Under the pieces are notes generated by a model. The model was not told where the DNA came from, searched no databases, and saw only the letters and a program-made list of their open reading frames with translations. Shown here piece after piece: positions 28,474-36,412 of a stretch of 38,669 bases of DNA. Made by a program: the position numbers and the translations under genes. Source of the stretch: a virus. Within the stretch, counting starts at the first letter, position 1. Each line of letters starts with the position of its first letter. The DNA lies in the IMG/VR virus record IMGVR_UViG_3300009551_000033, positions 1-38,669 of that record; one strand, written 5' to 3'.

Positions 28474-28516
28474 ATGTCGTGCCTGATTTATTCTAGCAGT
28501 TTTAGCTCAAGGCATA

Positions 28517-28544
28517 AAAGAAAATCCCCAGCCGAAGCCGGGGA
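28517..28544 (-). terminator. Strong intrinsic terminator ending the large RNA / early arm
   Basis: Minus strand TCCCCGGC pairs with GCTGGGGA around a TTCG loop (28544-28525; one G-T pair), followed by TTTTCTTTT (28524-28517 with following bases). It insulates the late operon from leftward early transcription. Confidence 0.9.
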
Positions 28545-28998
28545 CTATTGACGGCCGGTGCTGAGCTCCGGCTTGCCCTAGCGTCATCGTTAGCTTTGGG
28601 CACAAGGCGGAGTCGAACCGCCCTAGTCGTTGCATAAACTCGGTCACATGCCCGAGCACTCTGCACCTTGGCTCCTCGCGCGCGCATCAGCCTGCGCATT
28701 CGTCAATTGGTTATTGGTGGCCCGCGCTACCAGGCAAAGGCTTTTCGGTGACCGCTGCGTACTTTTCAGCACCGCGAAGTATCCCTGAGCGTTTCTCATG
28801 CACTTGCATTACACCAATATCAAAGCTGGTCTGGGTTTACAGACTATCCAGTTCATGAGCACTGGTAACATCCCTGCTTGCCTCATCCAAGCGGCAGCTT
28901 TGATATTGATGCAAAAACATCGGCCTTTCACCGACTGGCGCGCCGTAAGGGGGTTAGCGCGTCTGTTGAGGGAAGAAGAGAGGGGGAACCTCAACGGT
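28517..28998 (-). ncRNA. Large structured non-coding RNA candidate (about 480 nt)
   Basis: A gene-free stretch with a promoter-like sequence (29030-29002) and an intrinsic terminator (28544-28517). A 14-pair helix, CAATATCAAAGCTG at 28815-28828 with its complement at 28895-28908, is extended by TTGCAT (28804-28809) with ATGCAA (28909-28914) across a five-base bulge. It encloses three hairpins: 28829-28844, 28848-28865 and 28876-28892. The loops of the last two (GCTCATGA and GATGAGG on the minus strand) are complementary over five bases, a possible kissing pair. A further T-arm-like hairpin lies at 28606-28622. Other hairpins lie at 28964-28995 and 28735-28775. Size and setting recall large ornate phage RNAs (GOLLD, ROOL), but no family was tested. 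Confidence 0.7.
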
Positions 28999-29001
28999 TA
29001 T

Positions 29002-29030
29002 ATTTTAGCTGCTGGCTTAAGGGTATTCAA
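29002..29030 (-). promoter_or_regulatory. Promoter for the large RNA
   Basis: Minus-strand TTGAAT (29030-29025), a 17-base spacer and TAAAAT (29007-29002, five of six consensus bases). Transcription would start about 28999-28995, right after the last gene of the leftward early arm. This makes an independent RNA likely. Confidence 0.6.
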
Positions 29031-29031
29031 G

Positions 29032-29397
29032 CTATTCCTCAATTTCTATTTGCACGGCAATAGCAAGATAATCTGATGACCCTTTGGCTGTTTCATAAGC
29101 ATCAATCATTGATTCATAAGGACGTGTATTGCAACGAATTTCTTCGTGCTCTTTGTTATACCAAATATTGATATATCCGAGTCGCTTCTGTGGCTTCATG
29201 AAGAGGTCATGACGAGAATCAATATTCTCTCCTAATTTCCCATTTTCATAAGAGCAGCCAACAATGCCGCGCTGCATCCAAACAACACGGAAACCTTCGC
29301 TTGCCTCTGGAATGTGGGTCACGAATTTTGCTTCCGTCCCATCCCTCGTAACAATAGGGGCTCCGGCTTTTGCTGCTTCCAGATCAAACTTTCTCAT
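29032..29397 (-). CDS. Phage protein of the MRKFDLEAAKAGAP family
   Basis: A 121-residue protein. ATG 29397 is used because MRKFDLEAAKAGAPIVTRDG is the common beginning of this family and because it makes an ATGA overlap with the gene upstream. A small beta-rich N-terminal domain is followed by DLFMKPQKRLGYINIWYN. The family recurs in phage early regions; function unknown. It is the last gene before the large RNA. Confidence 0.72.
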   Translation of the reverse strand: MRKFDLEAAKAGAPIVTRDGTEAKFVTHIPEASEGFRVVWMQRGIVGCSYENGKLGENIDSRHDLFMKPQKRLGYINIWYNKEHEEIRCNTRPYESMIDAYETAKGSSDYLAIAVQIEIEE

Positions 29398-29540
29398 TGC
29401 CTCCACTCCCGACCTGCTTTATAAGCGCAGGCAATTGCCATCAATGCGTTAAAGATGGCTAAAAAATAGAATTTGTCATGTATGGAAAATGCCATTCCAA
29501 CTTGACACCAAATGCTCAAAAATAAAAAACCATATGGCAT
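29394..29540 (-). CDS. 48-residue membrane protein
   Basis: A short frame with GAGGGGGA upstream and an ATGA overlap with the next gene. It has two hydrophobic segments (GFLFLSIWCQVGMAF and FLAIFNALMAIACAY), separated by a short polar turn, and a basic end (KAGREWRQ). Probably a two-helix inner-membrane protein. Function unknown; one of several tiny membrane genes in this arm. Confidence 0.62.
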   Translation of the reverse strand: MPYGFLFLSIWCQVGMAFSIHDKFYFLAIFNALMAIACAYKAGREWRQ

Positions 29541-35830: not shown

Positions 35831-35896
35831 GACTACATCGCAGCACACAAACAAATGTGCAACCTGGCAGTAACCACCAATCACAGGGGAATTGAG

Positions 35897-36412
35897 ATGC
35901 AAACCACACTGAACAAAATCCGCGAGCATTCACCGTGCCATGAAGGCTGGTCTAAGTTGCTGCGCACCCTCAACAAGACCAAGGCCGACGATGAACCGCT
36001 GTCCATCATCACCGTTTTGGACAGTAATGGACTGGATGACGCGCTGTGGTGCTTGCGCGCCGTCGCCGGACATGACCGTGAAATTCGCCTCTTCGCTGTG
36101 TGGTGCGCTCGTCAAGTTGAGCACCTGATGAAGGATCAACGAAGCAAAAATGCGATTGATGTCGTGGAGCGTTTTGCAAATGGCGAGGCAACACAAGATC
36201 AGTTGGCCGCTGCCAGGGCCGCTGCCAGGGCCGCTTCCTGGGCCGCTGCCTGGGCCGCTGCCTGGGCCGCTGCCAGGGCCGCTGCCTGGGACGCTGCCAG
36301 GGCCGCTGCCAGGGCCGCTGCCAGGGCCGCTTCCTGGGCCGCTGCCTGGGCCGCTCAAGAAAAAGAACTGCGCCGCATCTGCGCTCAGATCGAAATGCGC
36401 GCTACTGCCTGA
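35897..36412 (+). CDS. Phage protein with alanine-rich repeat tail
   Basis: A 171-residue protein. ATG 35897 has AGGGG upstream; the earlier in-frame ATG has no ribosome site. The N-terminus (GWSKLLRTLNKTKADDEPLS, then LDDALWCLRAVAGHDREIRL) is a helical domain widespread in phages. The C-terminal part is a chain of AAAR/AAAW repeats encoded by a 12-bp tandem DNA repeat, ending in a charged helix. First gene of the rightward early arm, so made early. Function unknown. Confidence 0.75.
   Translation: MQTTLNKIREHSPCHEGWSKLLRTLNKTKADDEPLSIITVLDSNGLDDALWCLRAVAGHDREIRLFAVWCARQVEHLMKDQRSKNAIDVVERFANGEATQDQLAAARAAARAASWAAAWAAAWAAARAAAWDAARAAARAAARAASWAAAWAAQEKELRRICAQIEMRATA
36209..36352. repeat. 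12-bp tandem repeat with 12 phased CCWGG sites
   Basis: GCCGCTGCCAGG-like units repeat about 12 times, each with one CCWGG (from 36213 to 36349, exactly every 12 bases). It encodes the Ala/Trp/Arg repeat of the protein above. Copy number is likely to vary by slippage. Confidence 0.9.

Follow-up and report, generated by a model that had tools for sequence, protein, structure and literature searches.

GOLLD and ROOL are noncoding RNAs of phages and prophages, often encoded near tRNA islands, that combine kissing loops with an unconserved linker, which in GOLLD sometimes contains a tRNA (PMC12286853). AgvB and AsxR (RF02702, RF02703) are convergent, Hfq-bound phage anti-sRNAs of 51–60 nt that lambdoid prophages encode 3′ of pR′ (PMC4104026). 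In the lambda-type late leader, which runs from pR′ to tR′ and includes 6S RNA, a promoter is followed by an untranslated leader, a terminator and the late genes. The RNA described here resembles each of these in part. With GOLLD and ROOL it shares phage carriage, proximity to tRNA islands, kissing loops and a hypervariable linker, a likeness that is analogous and not homologous: there is no sequence or model match, and a core of approximately 55 nt plus insert compares with more than 500 nt. GOLLD and ROOL form homo-oligomeric RNA cages. The order of elements is that of the lambda leader, and a homolog in coliphage HK620 lies exactly at the leader position; however, the new class has a conserved structured core and many copies in other contexts, and the lambda leader is likened by position. 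AgvB and AsxR are likewise noncoding and 3′ of pR′, but differ in length, convergence and Hfq binding, and their Rfam models were not among the matches to the window up to E 5.

The window analyzed, a 38,669-nt stretch, is a complete phage genome with a 123-bp direct terminal repeat, and carries late genes, including a P22-like portal, on the minus strand. The gap preceding the terminase genes contains no ORF longer than 92 aa, in agreement with the initial annotation, which had seen no credible gene there. The promoter and terminator that it proposed are both present on the minus strand (Table 1), giving the lambdoid pR′ late-leader order of promoter, gene-free leader, terminator, and late genes. 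As bare patterns neither exceeds chance (promoter, 3 against 2.1 expected; terminator, 2 against 1.7 expected), but their weight is raised by HK620, in which a homologous RNA lies in the same order between the annotated pR′ and late terminator. The interval originally delimited, 28517–28998, is a fair estimate of the predicted transcript, although it did not single out the conserved part, 28546–28708. No PHROG or Pfam match was found upstream of the RNA (29032–29406), where a Q antiterminator gene was sought.

Table 1. Predicted features of the RNA locus, in order of transcription (window coordinates)
Feature	Coordinates	Strand	Basis
Promoter-like site TTGAAT-17-TAAAAT, candidate late promoter (pR′ equivalent)	29002..29030	-	9/12 matches
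5′ hairpin UUGAGG...CCUCAA, pyrimidine loop	28966..28994	-	Fold
Possible GC-rich hairpin, CCCCC loop	28937..28963	-	Sequence; uncertain
GAAA-loop hairpin directly 5′ of long helix	28919..28935	-	Sequence
Subdomain of the initial annotation: long helix and three hairpins	28806..28912	-	z −4.23; identical L084 the sole homolog
Degenerate first/second core, closing pairs UAUUGGUG/CACCAAUA	28712..28819	-	R3, filters off, 12.4 bits, local E 0.0022
Conserved class core	28546..28708	-	Model R3, 57.3 bits, E 4.5e-13
P1 5′ strand, pairs with 28546–28553	28701..28708	-	8/8 P1 pairs with both-side changes in class
P2 hairpin GCGCA-GGCUGA-UGCGC; GCUGA kisses P3	28682..28697	-	5/5 pairs with both-side changes
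Hypervariable insert between P2 and P3	28573..28681	-	Holds T-arm and anticodon-arm-like hairpin
P3 hairpin GCCGG-AGCUCAGCA-CCGGC; UCAGC kisses P2	28554..28572	-	3/5 pairs with compensatory changes
P1 3′ strand	28546..28553	-	Covariation
Intrinsic terminator: stem 28546–28523, then U-rich run	28516..28546	-	Replaced by tRNA start in L084
Possible extended −10 (TGCTAGAAT) for downstream late genes	28490..28498	-	Sequence only

The full RNA folds better than its shuffled counterparts (z −2.57), while the 3′ third, taken alone, does not (z −0.63). The MFE structure pairs 28937–28963 with the 28680s instead, leaving the GC-rich hairpin uncertain. By eye, the GAAA-loop hairpin resembles in position the GACAGCC..GGAAAGAC..GGC hairpin of some relatives. 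The TAGAAT of the possible extended −10 is also found in contig L082.

Evidence for a conserved structure comes from the core, whose consensus comprises P1, an AAU linker, P2 (GCGCA-GGCUGA-UGCGC), the insert, AA, P3 (GCCGG-AGAUCAGCA-CCGGC), and P1′. The P2 loop GGCUGA and the P3 loop, of pattern AG.UCAGCA, supply a five-base-pair kissing interaction, GCUGA/UCAGC, which is present in the window. P1 pairs AUUGACG with CGUCAAU in the window and, for example, GUGGUG with CACCAC in other copies. Two alignments were compiled. A6 contains 41 sequences, collected with the help of sequence anchors placed in P2 and P3 and hand-picked among the matches listed, leaving out rows with an evidently misplaced P2 anchor; P3 and the kissing pair are constant in it because the copies were selected on them. 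Each P1 pair and each P2 pair changes on both sides in A6, 94% of its cells are paired (29–42% with slid partners), and its covariation score was reached by no shuffle. A7 contains 24 more diverse copies, and its pairing percentages lean towards the structure because structural criteria were used in choosing them; here compensatory changes extend to P3 and the kissing pair. Over both alignments, 94–97% of pair cells are kept against 30–42% in slid controls, and covariation is 0.31–0.41 against 0.09–0.11 when shuffled.

The kissing pair itself is compensated in L014 (CCUGA/UCAGG) and L156 (GCUUA/UAAGC), the latter detected by covariance model. A complementarity-based scan of 2.9 Mb that did not fix the kissing sequence returned 92 GCUGA/UCAGC cases and the L014 variant; one further match, in L254, has a different kissing pair and looks like chance. 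The covariance model R3, built from A7 with the window excluded from training, recovers the window core (Table 1). The existence of the RNA and its class membership are thus well supported by sequence comparison, and we regard the assignment of the window to the class, with the core structure given, as close to certain. The degenerate core further upstream is without kissing loops, and some bases of the long helix also take part in its outer pairs. A closing helix upstream (P0) of at least 10 bp is commoner than in a control (48% of copies against 20%) and is not universal. A strand switch of the P1 5′ strand with an upstream copy found no support, the complement being present upstream in 10 of 133 copies against 13 in the control.

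Relatives were elusive at the level of DNA. The whole 546-nt stretch showed no similarity to phages and plasmids, and no convincing match to 50 viral records and 147 genomes, several of the genome matches falling in two blocks now recognized as core. Direct DNA searches returned only the contig L084, with an identical RNA and from the same metagenome as L082; at L084 7985–8014, the start of a tRNA gene stands in place of the terminator. The close phage L082/L002, with a 99% identical TerL, carries unrelated sequence up to the terminator edge, so that the RNA behaves as an exchangeable cassette. The border is sharp: L082 1–104 diverges from the window (28495–28546) exactly 3′ of the terminator. 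Two short blocks in the 3′ third of the RNA recur in phages whose NinG genes are related, and these are the two hairpins of the core. A pattern scan of viral contigs anchored on P3 yielded at least 116 distinct copies in loci, and a second was anchored on P2, among the matches listed; the L014 copy is at the equivalent place upstream of a related terminase. Weak R3 matches in Rhodanobacteraceae genomes (E 1e-6 to 1e-3, many of 41 nt) were set aside, being probably chance matches or repeats of another kind.

In TerL-related phages, the position that the RNA occupies in the window, ahead of the terminase genes, is taken by a tRNA with a CUA anticodon, a possible amber suppressor labeled Pyl by ARAGORN (L085 5612–5686; L022 751–825; L032 17–106). 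In L004, which has a closely related TerL, a tRNA-Ser (UGA; about 2406–2490) adjoins a tRNA-Tyr at this position; its long variable arm was recognized by eye, and ARAGORN had missed the gene.

With a single blastn query (E ≤ 1), core blocks turned up in 151 records of phages and 291 of plasmids, as well as in 755 of 5,426 complete Escherichia coli genomes (~14%, about one in seven), the weakest of these matches covering a single block. R3 confirmed the core in nine of the ten named-phage stretches searched. In HK620, the core is flanked by pR′ with qut on one side and by the late terminator on the other; in IME10 and PAJU2, it occupies the interval from Q to the lysis genes. It adjoins tRNA genes in P1-like RCS47 and is approximately 2 kb from them in Klebsiella phage Magnus. 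Other copies neighbor tRNA genes of P1-like and Ackermannviridae phages, belong to early operons, or are located among head genes. Phage records are blank at the core or have short hypothetical genes called there. In the IMG/VR loci, tRNA genes are enriched eightfold within 500 nt of cores, 19 of 19 on the same strand. Among the matches listed, a same-strand terminator follows the core in 29 of 112 copies, compared with 4 of 112 antisense. Together with T-arms found in the sense strand only, these same-strand terminators and tRNA genes argue that the element acts as RNA rather than DNA and set its strand. In Pantoea phage PA-1 (L312 3161–3226), an int-alpA RNA (RF02996, above gathering) is located 8 nt downstream of the core.

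The insert varies from 3 to 347 nt across the class, a range that takes in some chance matches. In the window it contains a T-arm, GGCGG-UUCGACU-CCGCC, at 28606–28622 and an anticodon-arm-like hairpin at 28639–28656; a similar insert is found in L287. An acceptor-like 7-bp pairing (28661–28667/28599–28605) is possible and not predicted, with zero probability in the thermodynamic ensemble. T-arms occur at 0.76 per kb in inserts against 0.032 per kb in neighboring DNA, a 24-fold difference, with none antisense, and T-arm modules are also enriched in the upstream arm, sense strand only, which in L120 scores as a tRNA (E 3.4e-8). By a strict rule, a T-arm is present in only 9 of 146 inserts among the matches listed, so tRNA-like cargo is not general. 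To judge from their sequences, inserts move between phages. L014 and L327 have a common insert on different cores. A 33-nt strip of the HK620 insert matches a tRNA cluster of Vi01-like phages, at a site annotated tRNA-OTHER in Kuttervirus SPHG3 (L303 4026–4059; L305 2501–2533).

The core is distinct from the subdomain on which the initial annotation had focused. The long helix (28895–28912/28806–28828; 17 uninterrupted pairs plus looser ones), the three 5-bp hairpins that it closes (28876–28892, 28848–28865, 28829–28844), and the five complementary bases between the first two loops (GAUGAGG and GCUCAUGA) are all in the sequence as described, and the subdomain folds better than 200 of 200 shuffles. 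AUGAG/CUCAU is a possible, candidate 5-bp loop–loop pair; by a rough estimate, such complementarity alone is expected by chance in roughly 1 in 30. As a signature of the class, helix and loop pair did not extend beyond one identical contig: a model of 28806–28912 (R1) returned only L084 and noise from 83 TerL-relative loci, 79 NinG loci, and 117 genomes, and no diverged homologs were found. As only an identical copy exists, proof of the class comes from the neighboring core.

The suggestion that this might be a new class was sound, in that Rfam 15 has no family covering the core or the class and the window RNA has no match above threshold. The comparisons proposed at the outset were run: models for GOLLD, ROOL, and HEARO gave no match to the window at gathering score or at E ≤ 5, ARAGORN found neither tRNA nor tmRNA, and the best Rfam tRNA match was tRNA-Sec at 23.9 bits (gathering 47). 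Position and logic justify the analogy first drawn with GOLLD and ROOL, while constancy of size does not, given the range of insert lengths. A search of the open-access literature, with subscription papers outside its scope, found no description of the sequence or the concept. What appears to be new is the class; noncoding RNAs of this general kind, encoded by phages close to tRNA islands, are already known.

We consider it most likely that the locus gives a structural RNA that works in trans and is transcribed as a late leader, with a kissing core framing variable cargo. A noncoding RNA of approximately 480 nt would be read on the minus strand, starting at a late, pR′-like promoter and stopping at an intrinsic terminator ahead of the terminase genes. 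In its conserved core, closing helix P1 brings P2 and P3 together and the loops of the two hairpins kiss over five pairs; the insert between them varies freely from phage to phage, and the sequence upstream of the core is variable too. The RNA would act as such and in trans, either in the lysogen or late in infection. Its kissing core may serve as a rigid frame, and possibly as a multimerization element, that presents or protects variable and sometimes tRNA-like RNA cargo; the T-arm insert and large upstream arm of the window would then be cargo-like elaborations. Such working would resemble that of GOLLD and ROOL, a conserved kissing-loop shell with a hypervariable linker, without kinship. 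A scaffold with cargo is suggested by the constant frame and free insert, following the logic proposed for GOLLD and ROOL (PMC12286853). For the account as a whole, a late-leader RNA of an uncatalogued class acting in trans as a kissing frame with cargo, we see the case as evenly balanced; the scaffold and cargo mechanism is put forward more tentatively, at somewhat less than even confidence. A doubtful extension would make the kissing core a frame of general use for cargo that is exchangeable and in some cases tRNA-like, acting in trans on translation or host defense late in infection and often accompanied by tRNA genes and a separable tmRNA-like module.

Late-leader position is common to HK620, IME10, PAJU2, L014, and the window, and the structure might instead act in cis, controlling transcription between late promoter and late genes through RNA-based antitermination, attenuation, or Q loading. 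Comparable cis elements are the lambda 6S leader region and the HK022 put RNAs. In favor of a cis leader are the sites of the HK620 copy, flanked by pR′/qut and terminator, of the IME10 and PAJU2 copies, flanked by Q and lysis genes, and of the copies in L014 and the window, which precede terminase genes. Against it, copies also adjoin tRNA genes, belong to early operons, or are located among head genes; no Q match was found upstream in the window, and a free insert of such variable length fits a leader element poorly. The range of genomic contexts favors a trans-acting RNA over a Q-specific leader element, and we hold the cis reading to be rather unlikely. Variable arms could also mimic tRNAs or other host RNAs as a decoy or sponge that absorbs an anticodon nuclease, an RNase, or a small RNA. 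The hypervariability would suit an arms race, and the sense-only enrichment of T-arm modules in inserts and upstream arm, with the tRNA score of the L120 arm, points the same way; most copies being without a tRNA-like module by the strict rule, such a role is unlikely, though, like the cis one, a live alternative.

The T-arm in the window insert, the tRNA genes nearby, and the tmRNA-like tag modules that 12 of 151 loci carry 5′ of the core raise the question of whether the RNA is a remnant or part of a phage tRNA or tmRNA gene rather than a class of its own. The window has no cloverleaf, CCA end, or tag, with all scores below threshold; no plausible tag frame or PK1-like motif was found in the RNA and 900 nt upstream, and ARAGORN detects neither gene. 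Most cores are without the tag module, which in turn exists in stretches of Felixounavirus, Kuttervirus, and Gamaleyavirus that have no core, and the core's own covariation shows that it is under selection. This origin is largely contradicted and very improbable. That the gap is a spacer with chance structure would accord with promoter and terminator scores at chance level and with the unremarkable fold of the 3′ third; it is contradicted by independent covariation across very diverse phages and by the match of R3 to a window it had not seen, and its probability is close to negligible. Uncatalogued though it is, this strongly covarying RNA is carried by the classical phage HK620, by P1-like phages, and by many E. 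coli genomes. The role of ornate phage RNAs has long been open, and the class offers an example in E. coli phages that are easy to handle, together with natural compensatory variants showing exactly which loop mutations to make.

The tmRNA-like module of some enteric phages, situated 5′ of the core or without it, is matched by 793 phage records, and most of those listed leave it unannotated. It consists of a PK1-like element and a tag frame (ANDEQFLAVA, ANEEMYLAVA, ANDDVVLMAA, ANDDLMMVAA, ANDNVFLAVA) whose stop codon lies within a small hairpin (L304 2712–2925; L303 3693–3840; L308 2299–2405; L432 about 1440–1660). A canonical tRNA-like domain was not recognized, Rfam tmRNA_permuted matches the module below threshold only, and ARAGORN reported no tmRNA in the three stretches checked (Felixounavirus, Kuttervirus, Gamaleyavirus). 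In L304 and L432, the module has its own promoter. Elsewhere in the window, 35855–36412 encodes a protein with long Ala/Trp/Arg repeats (AAARAASWAAAW...) belonging to PHROG 18326.
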